From assembly GCF_021107415.1 (NCBI RefSeq), contig NZ_JAIOSW010000029.1:1-5709 (forward strand): a stretch of DNA of 5,709 nucleotides, in the 5' to 3' direction. This DNA comes from Desulfobacula sp. GTDB taxonomy: Bacteria > Desulfobacterota > Desulfobacteria > Desulfobacterales > Desulfobacteraceae. This document shows positions 27 through 5,709 of this stretch, one piece after another. The notes below the pieces were generated by a model, which saw only the letters and a list, made by a program, of their open reading frames with translations, ran no database searches and had not been told where the DNA came from. The position numbers and the translations under genes are program-made. The first letter of the stretch is position 1. Each line of letters opens with the position of its first letter.

Positions 27-113
27 TCAAAAGCCAAAACATATACTTTGCAAATGGGAACAAATTGAATTAATAGATAAAAAATCAGATGGTTGATAAA
101 ATCCAACCGTCAT
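27..113 (-). CDS. Possible 28-aa ORF coupled to the 89-aa gene
   Basis: An ATG at 113-111 overlaps the TGA stop (112-110) of the upstream gene in an ATGA arrangement, which is typical of translational coupling. The frame stays open for 28 codons (starting MTVGFYQPSD) and stops at 29-27. The product matches no family I recognise. Alternatives: the 89-aa gene and this frame may be one longer protein broken by a frameshift, or the ORF may be chance, since a terminator-like hairpin covers its first codons. A further ATG at 42-40 opens a third frame that runs off the window edge for 14 codons; it could be the start of another gene but has only weak Shine-Dalgarno support. Confidence 0.25.
   Translation of the reverse strand: MTVGFYQPSDFLSINSICSHLQSICFGF
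79..111 (-). terminator. Weak intrinsic-terminator-like hairpin
   Basis: On the minus strand the arm at 111-101 pairs with the arm at 97-88 (core GGTTG/CAACC, one mismatch and a possible wobble pair). After a 3-nt gap follows a run of six T (84-79). It overlaps the stop codon of the 89-aa gene, so it could end transcription of the nuclease operon. The gap between stem and T tract and the low GC content make it weak. If it works, the 28-aa ORF overlapping it is less likely to be real. Confidence 0.3.
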
Positions 114-379
114 TTGCGGTCATAGGTCCAGATATATGATTTTGTATCTTTCTTTTCATTTTGATAGGACCATTCTTTACGGATAATATTTATACAATAA
201 TCCTCATGAAGGTTTTCTTCTTCTGGAGAAATCCATTCACCTTTAACCCAGCTTGGAAAAGATTCTCTTATGTTTTTATCAAATTTAGAAAGAACTTCTG
301 TCTCCATTTTTGATATAGCGTTATAGATTTCAAATGTTTTGTTAATATTTTTAATTAAATATTCAGTAGCTTCAGACAT
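110..379 (-). CDS. 89-aa protein of unknown function, partner of the PD-(D/E)XK nuclease
   Basis: I do not recognise a family. The start chosen is the ATG at 379-377 because GGAGAG lies about 5 nt upstream on the minus strand. An in-frame TTG at 391-389 would add four residues but overlaps that Shine-Dalgarno sequence. The ATG lies inside the end of the nuclease gene (stop at 374-372), an 8-nt overlap suggesting translational coupling and a joint role. The protein is charged and soluble-looking, with a predicted helical N-terminal half and a Trp-containing C-terminal half (SWVKGEW, KEWSYQ, YIWTY). No signal peptide or membrane segment is seen. It could be an accessory or inhibitor of the nuclease, or the N-terminal part of a longer protein cut by a frameshift near position 112. 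Both ideas are inference. Confidence 0.7.
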   Translation of the reverse strand: MSEATEYLIKNINKTFEIYNAISKMETEVLSKFDKNIRESFPSWVKGEWISPEEENLHEDYCINIIRKEWSYQNEKKDTKSYIWTYDRK

Positions 380-1070
380 AATTCTCTCCAAGATTGGAAA
401 TTATAAAATTTGAATATTGCTTTGCAGTTGATAAAATATATTCGTTTTTACAATTATTTGCGAACTTTTGTAAAACTTCCGCTATATCTTTCCAACTAAT
501 ATTAAAATCAGCTTTTCCTGAGTCAGGTTTTCTACCATCAGTGGTTAAAAAGAATACCTTGCACATTGATCGAGGGATGCCAAGAGCCATAGATCTTTTG
601 TTAAGAATCTCATTGTATCTCTCAATTTGATCGTCTTGCTCATTTGCCATTATTTTTGCTTCAATAATAAGCCAGAAATTTTTATTATAAATAGATATAT
701 CAACTCGACCTTGCTCGGAATAATTATCTTCAGTGGATACCGTGAAATATCCACCCTCTGTATATTGAAATATTTCTTTGACCTCAAATTTCTTTAAAAA
801 ACATTCTAAAAAAAGTTCCCCTTGGCTATGATTCCCACTTGGATTAAAAAACCATGCAAGCAAGGAACAATGTTTTAGTTCATTTTTTCCTATATTGAAT
901 CCATCGAATATATTAAGGCTTGGGGGAGTAATGGCGTAATTTTGTTTATCAGATAAAATTTTAGGGACTAAAGTTTCAAAAAACTGAAAATCTATTTTTT
1001 TTAGTTGCTTTTTTTGTTTAAAAGGAAATTCTTCGAAAAATGAGTTTATTGTGATCTTTTTAACTGTCAT
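372..1070 (-). CDS. PD-(D/E)XK nuclease superfamily protein (PDDEXK_4-like)
   Basis: This 232-aa protein shows the layout of the PD-(D/E)XK_4 family. A conserved acidic helix comes first: NELKHCSLLAWFFNP (residues 63-77, Glu64), followed by a Gly/His-containing QGELFLECFL segment. The catalytic core is GRVDI (121-125, Asp124) and IIEAKI (135-140, Glu137 and Lys139), followed by the helix EQDDQIERY (144-152). These match the D-(x)n-ExK metal-binding signature of a DNA endonuclease. It is the first gene of cassette 2: the ATG lies 58 nt after the attC recombination point, with only a poor Shine-Dalgarno sequence. The downstream 89-aa gene overlaps its 3' end by 8 nt. No signal peptide or membrane segment is seen, so it should be cytoplasmic. 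A role in phage or plasmid defence is inferred from family and cassette context. The substrate cannot be told from sequence. Confidence 0.88.
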   Translation of the reverse strand: MTVKKITINSFFEEFPFKQKKQLKKIDFQFFETLVPKILSDKQNYAITPPSLNIFDGFNIGKNELKHCSLLAWFFNPSGNHSQGELFLECFLKKFEVKEIFQYTEGGYFTVSTEDNYSEQGRVDISIYNKNFWLIIEAKIMANEQDDQIERYNEILNKRSMALGIPRSMCKVFFLTTDGRKPDSGKADFNISWKDIAEVLQKFANNCKNEYILSTAKQYSNFIISNLGENYV

Positions 1071-1122: not shown

Positions 1123-1248
1123 ACCGAACGTCTAGCTCAGGTGCAGCCGGGGTTACCACAACCTTTGCTTAAAATATATATTTTAATTTTACAGCAACCT
1201 TCGAAAACAGCGCAGACCCCGGCTGTCACCTGAAGCGTTTTGTTAAAT
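1123..1248 (-). other. attC: attC recombination site of cassette 1
   Basis: Read on the minus strand, the site opens with R'' ATTTAAC (1248-1242, RYYYAAC) and ends with R' GTTCGGT (1129-1123, one base off GTTRRRY). Between them the arms at 1233-1216 and 1153-1137 are complementary over 17 bp. A single unpaired base, T1226 (A on the minus strand), is an extrahelical base of the kind IntI uses to choose the bottom strand of a folded attC. The 62-nt variable loop contains an AT-rich palindrome (TTAAAATATATATTTTAA). The TAA stop of the DUF262 gene lies inside R'', the usual close packing of a cassette ORF against its attC. Length and register match the site at 2971-3096 exactly. Confidence 0.93.
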
Positions 1249-2976
1249 TTTCCATATATTCTTATAGGCTACTTCAGCCATTTTATCAGTATGAGTATTA
1301 ACGTCGTCAGGTGTCCATTCAGTTTTAGCAACTAAAAATTCTGGAATGCTATACTGTTCTTTTTTTAAAAGATTCATTTTTTCTGAAAAGATTTTGGTGC
1401 CCAACTTTCCATTCATTTCTTGATCGATAAATATTAGATTGCCAAGCTTTCCGATAGATTCCTCATCCCATATCTCATCAATGTTGGACTGTGGTTGCAC
1501 ATGCTCTATTGTCAGATCGTCAAAATCAACTGAATATTTATAAGAATAATATTCAGATAATTTTCTTAAAATATAGCGAACAAGTTTTTTTTGTTTTGAC
1601 CTACTATTCGTATAGTAAATCTCATTGAATGCCACTTTGAATTCCTCAAATGACGGATTTTTAGCTTTTAATTTGTCAACAAGGATAGTTATTTCATTAG
1701 ATGCATCTTGAGAATCATTCGCCTTAAATAGTTTTCGTGCAAATGAGGAATACATTGCCGATATGCCGCCAGAAGAGCGAGAAGAAGTTACAGCAGTAAA
1801 GATGAAATGGAATTTTTCAATAGATAGTAAAGCATCTCTTAATTTACCGAATTTAATAATTTTATTTCTGTATGACCTTATAAGAGACAAAACGGCAGGA
1901 ACTGGCTGAGACAACTTGAAAAGCTGGAGCGCCCACAGTGTTTGTGAAACTTCTCGTTCATTTTTATTCCAATCATATGATGTTTCATAAATAGATCTAT
2001 AAATCTTAACATCAGACAGTAAAGAATTTAAATATCCTGTCGCCTTTGCTTTTTTGATAGTCTTTTTAATTTTTGGGAATAATTTTTTGAGGGGGACGGC
2101 TTCATACCTCGAAGCCCAGAAATGATAGATAAAATTATCTGAAGAAATATCTGCTGATGAGTTGTGAATCATTTCTAAGATTTGTTGCCATTTTAATTTA
2201 GCATGGTCAACATCACCTCGTGCCTTAATGTGTTTGGCAAAGTGGTTTTTTACTAAATCTGTCAGCGCAAGATCTTTACCACGCGTGTTAAGCGTTTCAA
2301 AAATTAGATAAGCATCATCCTCGTTGTCTAAAGTTACGAAAATAACATTAAGGTTTAATACAGAATTTCTTATGCTTACGAGCTTAGTATTTTTCAGCTC
2401 TTTTCTGTCATCTTCTGGAACAGTAGTATCTGAGTCAACAGAATCCATGGCAGAAGCAACATACTTTTTAAACATTTGATGTGAATTCTCAAGATTTAGC
2501 TCCTCTGTATTTATTTCAGTTTCGACTTCAGGCTTCGAAAATTTTTGAATATGCTCCTGAAAATATGGGAATGATGTTTCTGTTTTTAAAACATATTCGC
2601 TTTGGTTATTTCTATCTTTTCTTTCAATGAGTTGATGGAGTCCTTTTGCAAGGTCATCATTTCCTATTTTTTTAAACTCATCCCTGATTACGCAAAGGAG
2701 GATTGTAATGGTAGTCAGGCGTTGTTGTCCATCAACAACACCAAATTGCTGTTTAGCTTTTTTGTAAACAACCATCGAACCAATGAAATAATCTTCATTT
2801 TTATTAATAACAAGGTCGTCCCAAAACTCTGAAATGTTTTCAGCATCCCAAGAGTAGGGTCTCTGAAAACGTGGAATATGAAAAAAACTCCCATTAAGTA
2901 AGCTTTCTATATCTGTGTCTTTCGATTCTATTTTCAAAGAGAGCCTCCTATATGATTATTGTAGATATCAATTTAA
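1129..2976 (-). mobile_element. Integron gene cassette 1 (complete, 1848 bp)
   Basis: The cassette is defined by the G/TT cleavage points of the two flanking attC R' boxes. It contains one gene filling nearly all its length, a 33-nt leader before the start codon, and its own attC at the 3' end. This is the standard cassette structure. At 1848 bp it is larger than most cassettes, reflecting the 564-codon gene. I see no promoter in the short leader, so expression would come from an array promoter or an upstream cassette. Confidence 0.9.
1243..2937 (-). CDS. GmrSD-family DUF262/DUF1524 nuclease
   Basis: This 564-aa protein joins an N-terminal DUF262 domain to a C-terminal DUF1524 HNH-type domain, the architecture of GmrSD-type (type IV) restriction enzymes and relatives such as SspE and BrxU. 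DUF262 motifs are IPRFQRPYSW (21-30), FIGSMV (51-56), VVDGQQRLTT (67-76; the DGQQR nucleotide-binding/hydrolysis signature) and FETLNTRGKDL (213-223). The DUF1524 part holds LTIEHVQPQS (475-484, His479), KLGNLIFI (497-504, Asn500), Asn509 and Lys520, then the usual tail with Trp541 and a final IW. All key motifs look intact. The TTG start is supported by a perfect AGGAGG six bases upstream and by no earlier start. Known relatives use nucleotides and cut modified or phage DNA; defence here is inferred. The stop codon falls inside attC. Confidence 0.92.
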   Translation of the reverse strand: MKIESKDTDIESLLNGSFFHIPRFQRPYSWDAENISEFWDDLVINKNEDYFIGSMVVYKKAKQQFGVVDGQQRLTTITILLCVIRDEFKKIGNDDLAKGLHQLIERKDRNNQSEYVLKTETSFPYFQEHIQKFSKPEVETEINTEELNLENSHQMFKKYVASAMDSVDSDTTVPEDDRKELKNTKLVSIRNSVLNLNVIFVTLDNEDDAYLIFETLNTRGKDLALTDLVKNHFAKHIKARGDVDHAKLKWQQILEMIHNSSADISSDNFIYHFWASRYEAVPLKKLFPKIKKTIKKAKATGYLNSLLSDVKIYRSIYETSYDWNKNEREVSQTLWALQLFKLSQPVPAVLSLIRSYRNKIIKFGKLRDALLSIEKFHFIFTAVTSSRSSGGISAMYSSFARKLFKANDSQDASNEITILVDKLKAKNPSFEEFKVAFNEIYYTNSRSKQKKLVRYILRKLSEYYSYKYSVDFDDLTIEHVQPQSNIDEIWDEESIGKLGNLIFIDQEMNGKLGTKIFSEKMNLLKKEQYSIPEFLVAKTEWTPDDVNTHTDKMAEVAYKNIWKI

Positions 2977-3096
2977 CGACAAGTTCACTGGTTGCAGGGG
3001 TTGCCAGAAAGCTTGTTCGTGATAATAATGATTGTTAAACCAAAACTTTTCAGAGCGGCTCAGTCCCCTGCAATCCAGTGAAACGCCAGGTTGGAC
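2971..3096 (-). other. attC: attC recombination site of the preceding cassette
   Basis: On the minus strand R'' is GTCCAAC (3096-3090) and R' is GTTAAAT (2977-2971), both perfect matches to RYYYAAC and GTTRRRY. The arms at 3082-3065 and 3000-2984 pair over 17 bp with one extrahelical base, T3074 (A on the minus strand). This bulge is 22 nt from the outer end of R'', exactly as in the other site. The loop is 64 nt. Conserved blocks shared with the other attC include TTCA and GGGG in the 5' arm and AACCCC followed by TGA in the 3' arm. The site should belong to a cassette lying at higher coordinates, but an IS91-family element begins directly at its outer edge. Confidence 0.94.
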
Positions 3097-3099
3097 GAA

Positions 3100-3112
3100 G
3101 CCGCTACGCGGC
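3100..3112. other. GC-rich hairpin at the IS left end
   Basis: GCCGC, TAC, GCGGC forms a perfect 5-bp stem with a 3-nt loop, starting 4 nt after the attC and about 75 nt before the recombinase start codon. Rolling-circle HUH elements often have a small hairpin at the terminating end, and the position fits a terIS-like structure. It could instead be left over from the interrupted cassette. Confidence 0.4.
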
Positions 3113-3140
3113 AGAAAAAACCAAAATAGTGTATAACTCC

Positions 3141-3186
3141 TATCCGTGTCCAATTCCGGATACAATAATTTAAAAAGGAGTATACC
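3141..3186 (+). promoter_or_regulatory. Upstream region and RBS of the recombinase gene
   Basis: An imperfect inverted repeat (TATCCG at 3141-3146, CGGATA at 3157-3162) overlaps a -10-like TACAAT (3161-3166) and precedes a strong Shine-Dalgarno AGGAG (3176-3180), six bases from the ATG at 3187. No good -35 element is visible, so the promoter is tentative. The repeat could be an operator or an end structure of the element. The ribosome binding site is clear. Confidence 0.4.
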
Positions 3187-4091
3187 ATGAAAAAAACAGA
3201 AGTAAATCGATTCAACAAGCTTTATGAACTGCATCTAAGATCTCTCAAGCTTCAAGGAAAAGCACAAAAAACCATTGAGGCTTATTCCAGAGCCTTACGC
3301 CGGGTTTGTGATTATTTTAATTGCTGTCCCGATAAATTAAAACCGGAACAATTGGAAAAATATTTTGCTGACCTTGTAGACTCTCACTCATGGAGTACAG
3401 TTAAAATTGACCGCAGTGGCCTGCAATTTTTCTGGAAACATGTACTCAAACTTGATTGGAAATGGATTGATATTGTAAAACCACCACAAGTTAAAACAAT
3501 TCCTGATATTATCACTCCTGCTGAAGTTGACAGGCTTATTGCTGTAATACGCAAACTGAGGTATCGTGTTTTTATATTAACTACCTATTCAATGGGGCTT
3601 CGTTTAGAAGAAACATTATCTCTTCAGGTTGGTGATATTGATGCAAGCCGGAAACGTGTTCATATCCGCCGTGGAAAAGGTCATAAAGATCGTTTGGTGC
3701 CATTGCCCGATCTTACTTTGCAGGGATTGCGTGAACTTTGGAGCAAGCATAAGAATCCCAAATTATTATTTCCCAAAGCCTCAGGTTCTTTTCAAACAAT
3801 TCAAAAAGCTAAAACTCATATGGATAGGGGTGGTGCACAAAAAGCCATGAAAACAGTTGTGGTTGAATGTGGTATTAAAAAAAAATCTCCGTGCATTCCC
3901 TTCGGCACAGTTTCGCCACTCATCTGCTTGAACGCGGCTTAAGTCTCCGCCATATACAGGCCTTGCTCGGTCATGCAAGCCCTCTCACAACAGCACGTTA
4001 CGCTCATATAACTGACTTCACAGAACAAAATAGTCTGCTCACTATTAATAAACTCATGAACACACTTCATGTTGATTTGAAAAAGGTGTAA
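3187..4091 (+). CDS. IS91-associated tyrosine recombinase, split by a -1 frameshift
   Basis: Two overlapping frames together make one XerC/D-type recombinase of about 301 aa. The first frame (3187-3942, 251 codons) has the SAM-like DNA-binding N-terminus (about residues 8-90) and catalytic Arg139 (GLRLEE) and Lys164 (RGKGHKDR), then ends in an unrelated tail. The second frame, ending at 4091, continues with [15 protein letters not shown] (box II His/Arg), LLGHAS and the nucleophile Tyr in TTARYAHIT. The frames meet at an A9 run (3877-3885). A -1 shift there gives [13 protein letters not shown], a smooth join. The first product alone lacks the box II residues and nucleophile and cannot catalyse strand exchange. 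The integron-integrase-specific insertion is absent, so it is not IntI. It may be programmed frameshifting, a real mutation or a homopolymer sequencing error. Confidence 0.87.
3877..3885 (+). other. A9 slippery run at the frame junction
   Basis: Nine consecutive A occupy three in-frame AAA codons. Slipping back one base on the mRNA, or gaining one A during transcription, moves ribosomes into the frame that encodes the recombinase active site. Runs of A7 or longer are known slippage sites in insertion sequences. An unshifted ribosome stops at 3940-3942, giving a 251-aa product. Confidence 0.6.
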
Positions 4092-4093
4092 TC

Positions 4094-5143
4094 ATGAAAA
4101 TAGCCTCTATTCTCAATCAATACCATGATAAATTTATTACTAAATATGGTGACACTGCATTACCCGGTCATTTAAAGGCAATAAATGCTATTTGCAATTG
4201 TCATACTCCTGCCTCGGGTGAACTTTACGTGGGTTGTTCCAATTGCAGCCATACAGAGTGGAAACCTTTATCCTGTGGTCACCGCAGTTGTCCTCAATGT
4301 CAGAATCATGAAGCCAGCCGGTGGATCGACCGGCAACAGGGTAAATTATTACCTGTTCCTTACTTTCTGATTACTTTTACACTGCCTTATGAACTAAGGT
4401 CATTGGCTTATCATAATCAGAGATTAATGTTTTCTCTCTTCTTTTTTTGTGTTGCAAGTACTCTGAAAGATTTTGGTTTAAATCCAAAAAAGTTGGGGGC
4501 TGAGATCGGAATGACTATGGTATTGCACACGCATAGCAGAAAACTCGATTTTCACCCCCACATACATGTTGTTGTTCCTGGTGGCGGCATTGATAAACGC
4601 AGACGTCAATGGAAAAAGAAAAAAGGGAAATATTTATTCCATTATAAAGCCTTGGCAATTGTCTTTCGTGCCCGATTTTTAGCAGCCTTAAATGAATCAA
4701 AACTTTTTATTCCCAAACAAGTCCCTAAAAAATGGGTGGTTGACTGCTCCCATGCAGGAAAAGGAATAACTGCGATCAAATACTTATCCAGGTATTTATA
4801 CCGTGGTGTTATCAGTGAAAAAAATATTGTTTCTAATCATAATGGCATGGTGACTTTTAAGTATACTGAAAGTAAAACAGGTGAAACACGATTTAGAACC
4901 CTTAAAGGGGAAAACTTTTTAAAACTGCTTATGCAACATGTCCTCCCCAAAGGGTTCCGAAGAGTCAGAGACTATGGCTTCCTTCACAGCAATGCAAAAA
5001 AAATACTTTTTCTGATTCAATTAATTTTATACGTTAAAATAAAAGAAATTGAACAACGTACAAGACCGATTTTTAAATGCCCATGCTGTAAGTCACCCAT
5101 GGTTGTTATAGGGTTTCGTTACACAGGAGAAAAATCCGGATAA
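4094..5143 (+). CDS. IS91-family HUH (Y2) transposase
   Basis: This 349-aa protein has the three expected IS91 regions. The N-terminal zinc-binding part holds Cys34, 36, 48, 51, 61, 66 and 69, including CGHRSCPQC (61-69). The HUH metal-binding motif is HPHIHVVVPGGG (154-165, His156 and His158). The catalytic tyrosines are in KYLSRYLYR (229-237), with Tyr230 and Tyr234 spaced as in the YxxxY motif that separates IS91 proper from the single-Tyr ISCR group. RDYGFLH (292-298) and a C-terminal CPCC cluster (329-332) are also family features. No motif is missing, so it is probably active. Its ATG lies 2 nt after the recombinase stop, with AAGG just upstream, so the two genes are likely one transcript. 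Such enzymes nick and transfer single strands at the element's origin end. Confidence 0.95.
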   Translation: MKIASILNQYHDKFITKYGDTALPGHLKAINAICNCHTPASGELYVGCSNCSHTEWKPLSCGHRSCPQCQNHEASRWIDRQQGKLLPVPYFLITFTLPYELRSLAYHNQRLMFSLFFFCVASTLKDFGLNPKKLGAEIGMTMVLHTHSRKLDFHPHIHVVVPGGGIDKRRRQWKKKKGKYLFHYKALAIVFRARFLAALNESKLFIPKQVPKKWVVDCSHAGKGITAIKYLSRYLYRGVISEKNIVSNHNGMVTFKYTESKTGETRFRTLKGENFLKLLMQHVLPKGFRRVRDYGFLHSNAKKILFLIQLILYVKIKEIEQRTRPIFKCPCCKSPMVVIGFRYTGEKSG

Positions 5144-5334
5144 TTATTATTAACGGCAAAAGCTGCTGTTCATTTTAAAAGCAGGGGGAAAAGAAACTTA
5201 AATGAAATAATTATTGCTTTAAAAAACCTATTTTCGGGTTAATGCACCCGTGCGCCTTAAATTTGACTATCCTTCTGAAGGCGCATCATCTTCTCCATAT
5301 TCAAAAAAAGATATTTTCTTATATATAGACCACA
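5144..5334. other. Non-coding IS tail with hairpins
   Basis: This stretch lies between the transposase stop and the glycosyltransferase stop and has no credible gene. It holds a small repeat (CTGCT at 5163-5167, AGCAG at 5180-5184) and two adjacent hairpins. The first is CGGGT (5235-5239) with ACCCG (5246-5250). The second is TGCGCCTT (5251-5258) with AAGGCGCA (5278-5285) and a 19-nt loop. The hairpins abut with no gap. They are probably the IS origin end or a terminator pair between convergent genes, though no T-run directly follows either stem. The last 49 nt (5286-5334) are AT-rich without visible structure. Confidence 0.5.
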
Positions 5335-5709
5335 TCAAAAATTTTGCCGGGCTTGTCCAACCACCGGATAAGATTGTGGTTCGTTCCTCACACAATCTAT
5401 CCTTATTCGTTCGGTGATTTCTGACCTGGCATCGTAATAAAACTGATCCGCCTGCTTTTGGTCTCTCTTAAAAACCCTGTAAACAACCATTGGGTTCTTA
5501 ATAAAATACCAATCGCCAAATTGATCAAATTTCCTGCACGATGTTACAATGTGGGCCTTGCGTATTGTGTAATACCGCTTTCCACGATCTTTTCCATATC
5601 TTTTCAAACGTTTACCAAAATCAATATCTTCGATGCAAGCCAGCTTTTCATCGAAGCCCCCAATTGCCTGATAGTCTTTTCTTAAGCACCAGAACATTCC
5701 AGCACTCAC
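5335..5709 (-). CDS. Glycosyltransferase family 2, C-terminal part (cut by window edge)
   Basis: The visible 124 codons are the C-terminal end of a GT-A fold family 2 glycosyltransferase. The frame is open to the window edge; the first codon there is GTG inside the coding region, not a start. Near the edge is SAGMFWCLRKDY followed by GGFDE (about residues 17-21) and the acidic pair ED (27-28), the usual acceptor-side and catalytic-base region. RLKRYGK and RKFDQFGDWY follow, as in many cytoplasmic polysaccharide or lipid glycosyltransferases. The N-terminal nucleotide-sugar binding half is outside the window. It converges on the insertion sequence and ends 191 nt from the transposase stop. Donor and acceptor cannot be told. 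It may be the gene of the cassette that owned the attC at 2971-3096, now separated from it by the insertion. Confidence 0.85.
   Translation of the reverse strand: MSAGMFWCLRKDYQAIGGFDEKLACIEDIDFGKRLKRYGKDRGKRYYTIRKAHIVTSCRKFDQFGDWYFIKNPMVVYRVFKRDQKQADQFYYDARSEITERIRIDCVRNEPQSYPVVGQARQNF

Follow-up and report, generated by a model that had tools for sequence, protein, structure and literature searches.

The window, by which we mean the whole 5709-base stretch of DNA analysed here, carries the genes of a cassette array on its minus strand and the genes of an inserted element on its plus strand. Its features are as follows:

110..391, minus: small open reading frame that overlaps the nuclease gene and probably belongs to its cassette
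372..1070, minus: PD-(D/E)XK nuclease (PDDEXK_4; Pfam PF14281, PADLOC PDC-S26)
1123..1248, minus: attC site 1, that of the GmrSD cassette, with R'' ATTTAAC at 1248-1242 and R' GTTCGGT at 1129-1123 (box-plus-stem scan and covariance model R2)
1129..2976, minus: GmrSD gene cassette, 1848 bp (from the sequence and the attC boxes)
1243..2937, minus: GmrSD-like protein (DUF262/HNH), 564 amino acids (Pfam PF03235 and PF07510; PADLOC models Orf5 and HEC-06)
2971..3090, minus: attC site 2, that of the upstream cassette on the glycosyltransferase side, with R' GTTAAAT at 2977-2971 and an R'' box cut after base 3090
3091..5409, plus: inserted element of 2319 bp, opposite to the array (ends from comparison with relatives)
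3091..3113, plus: element left end, TTGGACGAAGCCGCTACGCGGCA, with a short hairpin, conserved in relatives
3187..3942, plus: tyrosine recombinase, N-terminal frame (PF13495, PF00589)
3877..3885, plus: A9 tract at a conserved frame change (from the sequence)
3891..4091, plus: tyrosine recombinase, C-terminal frame (PF00589; alignment)
4094..5143, plus: IS91 family HUH transposase (NF033538, PF04986, PF14319)
5351..5409, plus: element right end, consisting of GGCTTGTCCAAC, a hairpin and CTATCCTTATTCG, conserved in relatives
5410..5415, minus: remainder of the site 2 R'' box (plus strand, TTCGGT), displaced by the insertion
5416..5709, minus: 3' end of a glycosyltransferase-like gene (weakly matched by NCBIfam TIGR04283, at 29.8 bits for a cut-off of 182)

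A scan for RYYYAAC and GTTRRRY boxes with a stem between them (cut-off 24) found exactly two sites in the window, 1123-1248 (stem score 34) and 2971-3096 (stem score 32); a stem score of 32 or more was obtained in none of 200 windows shuffled in 100-base blocks. Polarity was scored with a position matrix, for which attCs were taken from contigs with a true IntI gene, in genomes holding relatives of the transposase, and from the aadA1 attC of R100. The 17 candidates on IntI contigs gave 13 training attCs, as four were left out (L079 twice, L096 and L081:11320): one was an element end, one lay on the wrong side of intI and two looked poor. Twelve of the 13 were oriented correctly when left out. 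Site 1 scored 12.8 on the minus strand against -17.2 on the plus strand, and site 2 scored 5.7 against -31.6, while the maximum among 353 negative sites in shuffled sequence was -3.2.

A first covariance model (R1), made from trimmed training sites, reported neither window site, even with filters off, the probable cause being that long loops are beyond its span. As it also omitted two known sites of L084 (126 and 128 nt), a second model (R2) was built. R2 was trained on 16 attCs, with the window excluded: the 13 IntI-anchored sites and three from L045, the strand of which was set by R1 and not by IntI. At least seven of the 16 come from element-bearing contigs (L045, and L090, which is the contig of L005). 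R2 matched 1123-1248 with 44.4 bits (E 2.4e-9) and 2971-3096 with 28.4 bits (E 1.9e-5, computed with the element end standing in as R'' box), on the minus strand only. Both palindromes of the window are real attC sites. The first-pass annotation had claimed an unannotated integron with a GmrSD cassette; the box-plus-stem scan, the matrix and R2 all support this array, the last of these, built without the window, having placed both sites above background. Since both R2 matches lie on the minus strand, the array runs with the GmrSD gene, which agrees with the orientation first proposed. The opposite polarity, initially hinted at by insertion at G/TT (slash, junction), was rejected: the matrix and both covariance models put the attCs of element loci on the minus strand. 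The matrix scored minus above plus for 19 of 19 element-locus candidates (of 25 flank candidates, six were omitted as unlike attC). With the element taken as plus in 46 sources, 53 of 53 R2 attC matches were opposite to it; seven of these are R2 training sites and some lie kilobases away from the element.

The start of the GmrSD cassette (TTAAAT) is complementary to its R'' (ATTTAAC), as expected of a circular form, and the GmrSD stop codon (TAA, 1243-1245) lies inside the R'' of site 1 (1248 to 1242), as had been read from the outset. The next cassette begins at 1128 and has the nuclease gene in first place; the small frame that overlaps this gene had no family match in Pfam, NCBIfam or PADLOC. 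The glycosyltransferase-like gene is likely the gene of the cassette that owns attC site 2. These data support an array read on the minus strand, in which a glycosyltransferase-like cassette is followed by the GmrSD cassette and then by a two-gene nuclease cassette. The glycosyltransferase-like frame is free of stops into the right end of the element (window 5335-5709); when the flanks were joined in silico it crossed the attC and stopped just past site 2, which is unusual for a cassette gene. The cargo at 372-2937 resembles defence genes (GmrSD-like protein against PADLOC Orf5, 841.8 bits; nuclease against PDC-S26). A search of 50 genomes for the GmrSD protein gave no match at 1e-60. An Rfam scan of the window gave a single match, under its gathering score, and neither intI nor attI was seen within the 5709 bases. 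A common design of the two attCs, taken initially as a sign of a homogeneous array, was not found: on global alignment they showed an identity of 0.69, compared with a shuffle mean of 0.70. The sedentary chromosomal integron suggested on that basis, with its many near-identical attCs, loses its support as well, the two available sites being alike only at shuffle level. The integron is genuine and, taken alone, unremarkable; the more unusual feature is the splitting of site 2 by the element.

Both sites had been described as 126-bp attCs, and both were indeed recognised with boxes and stems, but site 2 is not intact. Bases 3091-3096 (TTGGAC) are the conserved left end of the element, so that the apparent outer box GTTGGAC is made of one attC base and the element end, and the rest of R'' is found at 5410-5415. 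The ends were fixed by comparing 45 transposase relatives, in which the left junction reads G/TTGRACGAAGCC and the right junction usually CTATCCTTATTCG/TT. When ends were aligned pattern-free, 21 left flanks finished in G and 32 right flanks started in a GTT-compatible way. The right junction is GTT in the window and in 32 right ends, and the next base is variable (A 18, C 9, G 8, T 1 of 36, with a pattern that demanded GTT). The two sides of the window junction have only GTT in common. The insertion is exact within the R'' box of site 2 (G/TT on the attC bottom strand). Read on the array strand, the left end is GTCCAAC in the window and GTYCAAC in general; this is a good R'' box, and attC site 2 is therefore rebuilt and probably still works. 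Two right ends (L007, 1851-1870; L028, 4137-4174) carried a short tandem duplication of the terminal sequence.

The exact left-end pattern was present in 15 of 395 genomes from the phylum of one host, and the same pattern written backwards, used as a control, was absent from the matches listed for these genomes. The 33 matching places gave 30 loci (G179 has 11 matches, of which seven were taken). Altogether 58 left ends were gathered, 57 of them with enough flank (L001, with too short a flank, was excluded), and the attC cut-off for flanks was set at the 99% point of 2850 control AAC sites. At this cut-off, 20 of the 57 were attCs with R'' at the element and two had R' there (both in G319). 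A second draw of 1321 controls gave a higher cut-off, and none of the 57 flanks outscored the best control, because controls share loci and may include true attCs. Element genes were found behind 37 left ends, which are not all independent since several copies come from the same genome (five from G179). Thirteen of these passed as attC with R'' at the element and 12 were kept: L118, which passed the 2850-control cut-off but failed the 1321-control one, was grouped with the non-attC flanks. R2 touched the junction in nine of the 37 at E<=1 (the window, L006, L008, L018, L022, L025, L030, L045 and L109), and in L014 its match lay a few bases from the junction. The other 25 of the 37 verified insertions lie outside recognisable attCs. 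Twenty more left ends had no element genes in view and stand outside the verified set; seven of these were classed as attC R''.

Among the 30 pattern loci, R2 matches ran in the same direction as the left end in L100, L114 and L104 (the last a weak attC match) and in the opposite direction in the others. L100 and L114 are the two G319 loci, in which the left-end sequence stands at the R' of an attC in array orientation and the contigs end before any element gene; the left end of L114 is about 2.5 kb from IntI. On the L005 contig, a copy of the element is separated from a true IntI gene by several attCs, each of which runs the other way from the element.

The N- and C-terminal parts of the recombinase were out of frame in 29 of the 31 loci in which both parts lie close together (L003 and L005 share a genome). 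In 27 of these 29 the joint is an A-tract, about 7-9 long; the exceptions, L035 and L037, have internal deletions and a joint that lacks the tract. L015 has a stop in the N part. In-frame recombinases were found in L043 and L044, which complete the 31 and are distant relatives, in L099 and L113, and in four plasmid relatives annotated as one gene. Both parts are under purifying selection, with dN/dS medians of 0.111 (114 unsaturated of 325 pairs) and 0.119 (331 of 465 pairs). In the alignment, a conserved stretch (ten residues, then LGHA and ARY), which has a catalytic role in tyrosine recombinases, is in the C part only. As the C-terminal catalytic part is reached in this branch only through the frame change at the A-tract, full-length enzyme is probably scarce, and the frame change likely signifies a regulated, low-level production of complete recombinase. 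A literature search returned no paper on a programmed frameshift with a tyrosine recombinase and an insertion sequence. L099 and L113 encode recombinases about 27% identical to that of the window behind the same left-end sequence, so the left end may predate this branch. Four left ends with 1.5 kb behind them (L105, L111, L123 and L127) had no recombinase match and are possibly decayed, different or non-autonomous copies.

The best NCBIfam profile of the N part is TIGR02249, which is also the profile of IntI. The N part scored 100 bits and the C part, scored apart, 47.6 bits, both below the cut-off of 265. The element recombinases form a branch separate from IntI in the tree (98/90). An IntI-specific segment, which follows the core and precedes the C-terminal catalytic box, is present in the two IntI compared and absent from five element recombinases and from a Photobacterium one. 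The possibility that the recombinase is itself an IntI was ruled out by these three results.

The 25 verified non-attC flanks were enriched for positions conserved in attC, A at 1 and 2, T at 8, A at 11 and G at 15 (p 1e-9 to 1e-3), and showed no enrichment for T at 9, G at 12 or A at 16. T8 together with A11 was present in 15 of these 25 flanks and in 41 of 358 background sites (p 5e-8). In G179, which has no IntI match at 1e-75, both bases were present in six of seven copies and in four of the five in which the recombinase was seen (L123 and L127 are the two others, and L127 is itself an attC). Flanks also folded slightly better than controls, with median z values of -1.47 for 12 attC flanks, -0.76 for the 25 others and -0.06 for 200 controls (p 0.015 and 0.028), many non-attC targets being only weakly structured. 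The half-site motif in non-attC flanks and the situation in G179 suggest that the R''-L'' half-site is recognised by the element's own machinery, through one or other of its enzymes.

We propose, with a probability of about 0.8, that the window holds a genuine cassette array, one attC R'' of which was entered backwards by an IS91-type element, encoding an HUH transposase and a tyrosine recombinase, whose own machinery chooses the site. The proposal is built on the ends, the R'' position, the opposite polarity, the recurrence, the target motif, the conserved frame change and the purifying selection on both frames. The element sits exactly in the R'' box (G/TT, attC bottom strand), opposite to the array, and its left end (GTYCAAC on the array strand) supplies the attC with a new R'' box. 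According to the proposal, the machinery of the element would recognise the R''-L'' half-site and so select its target, with the tyrosine recombinase as the likeliest agent; the HUH transposase would copy the element, and the frame change at the A-tract would keep full-length recombinase low. As judged from sequence, the element appears to be attC-targeting mobile DNA with a strong positional signature, the enzyme that chooses the site being a proposed one.

A close precedent for this behaviour is that of group IIC-attC introns, which insert at the R'' of the attC bottom strand (consensus TTGT/T), opposite to the cassette genes, and are also reported at other sites (PMC7923331, accessible part). 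The element uses the same box in the same orientation; however, the introns are retroelements with an intron-encoded protein, whereas the element encodes DNA enzymes (HUH transposase and tyrosine recombinase). Its enzymes also differ from those of the IS1111-attC group (ISKpn4, ISPst6; PMC11187229, accessible part), which uses a DEDD transposase with a guiding RNA. The transposase is a Y2 HUH enzyme with a zinc domain that matches NF033538 at 388.6 bits (cut-off 125), which places it in the IS91 family (IS91, IS801, ISCR, ISShvi3). It departs from this family in two respects: a tyrosine recombinase is present, split between frames in this branch, and the attC R''-L'' half-site is the preferred target. 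For ISCR28, attC sites have been reported at its end or directly behind it, with data not shown there (PMC12772301, accessible part), and IS91-like elements with attC alongside are mentioned, with no analysis of R'' in the accessible text, in PMC9229058 and PMC12772301. A literature search that left most subscription journals outside did not turn up any account of an IS91-type element that encodes a tyrosine recombinase and targets R''. A DNA transposon family appears to use the same box and orientation as group IIC-attC introns, and with a frame change that looks programmed and two dissimilar strand-transfer enzymes it offers a testable system. A caution applies to attC finders: a boundary that they report may be part of a transposon.

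Alternatively, the HUH transposase alone might pick the target by inserting beside a short tetranucleotide (here YAAC), in the manner of IS91 and IS801, for which enzyme a folded single-stranded attC would simply be a good substrate, the recombinase serving to resolve or circularise copies or in a similar function. We hold this as a tentative possibility. IS91-type transposases do choose short tetranucleotides, which YAAC would resemble: the IS801 targets GAAC, GGAC, CAAG and CGAC are like the 3' end of R'' (PMC3189936, accessible part). Also consistent with it are the use of this box, on the folded bottom strand, by group IIC-attC introns (PMC7923331, accessible part) and the somewhat better folding of element flanks than of controls. 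A further point in its favour is the right-end hairpin near the junction, which is similar to the oriIS of IS91. However, a tetranucleotide does not account for a motif that reaches 15 bases into non-attC flanks, and structure is weak in many non-attC targets.

The origin of new cassettes is an old question in integron biology, and the entry of elements into attC at a fixed box has been proposed as a route to them, a suggestion made for group IIC-attC introns (PMC7923331, accessible part). A stronger form of our reading would make the element both a dedicated parasite and a maker of cassettes: a frameshift-controlled recombinase would read the R''-L'' half of a folded or ordinary attC, enter backwards and rebuild R'', and copies lying behind ordinary genes at look-alike sites could, through inter-copy recombination, link these genes to an attC and so create cassettes. 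We regard this extended scheme as doubtful.

It is improbable, in our estimation, that a circular form of the element was taken up as a cassette by the IntI of the integron itself, the right end then being a poor attC. Such an event would fit the correspondence between GTTGRAC at the left start and GTYCAAC in subterminal position on the right, found in 13 of 16 elements (p 0.026), which resemble the two R boxes of a cassette circle, and the detection of the right end by the box scan in several loci. Many hosts do possess IntI: it was over cut-off in 25 of 35 host genomes and in none of 14 control genomes (37 of the 45 loci entered this count; L026 was left out). In the phylum sample 134 of 395 genomes had IntI, 11 of the 15 with the left-end sequence compared with 123 of the 380 without it (p 0.002), and four of the six with a recombinase behind the left end (G159, G166, G310 and G400, and not G179 or G386). 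The association between element and IntI, which also counts towards the main proposal, is weaker than it looks. IntI-mediated integration is opposed by the junction, which is at R'' rather than R', by the opposite orientation, and by G179, where 11 left-end matches coexist with no detected IntI. In addition, the right ends score poorly as attC: with the matrix, 10 of 11 fell under the 95% point of the negatives in both orientations (the exception is L030), and with R2 the window right end gave only 12.7 bits (E 0.13). A simple large cassette with a normal attC was judged unlikely on the same scores. That the palindromes are chance hairpins or terminators, or that this contig, which is short, was misassembled, is highly improbable given the R2 E-values (2.4e-9 and 1.9e-5), the absence of comparable stems in 200 shuffles, and the presence of the same junction in other contigs and in a plasmid record.

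This record was found by tblastn of 72,556 plasmid records, 323 of which contained relatives, all of less than 60% identity. The E. coli IncC plasmid NZ_LT985243.1 (L132, 2935-5330) carries a distant relative, with a transposase 44.6% identical, between aadA1 and qacEdelta1 and opposite to the array. Compared with the intact attC of R100, one flank in the plasmid matched up to position 13530 and the opposite flank from 13526 onwards; these limits place the break in TTGTT at the R'' box of the aadA1 attC. The full element of NZ_LT985243.1 was found at high identity in no other record among the 72,556 plasmids, nor in the E. coli genome collection. The distribution of the element family is mostly in Desulfobacterota genomes, with one E. 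coli resistance plasmid.
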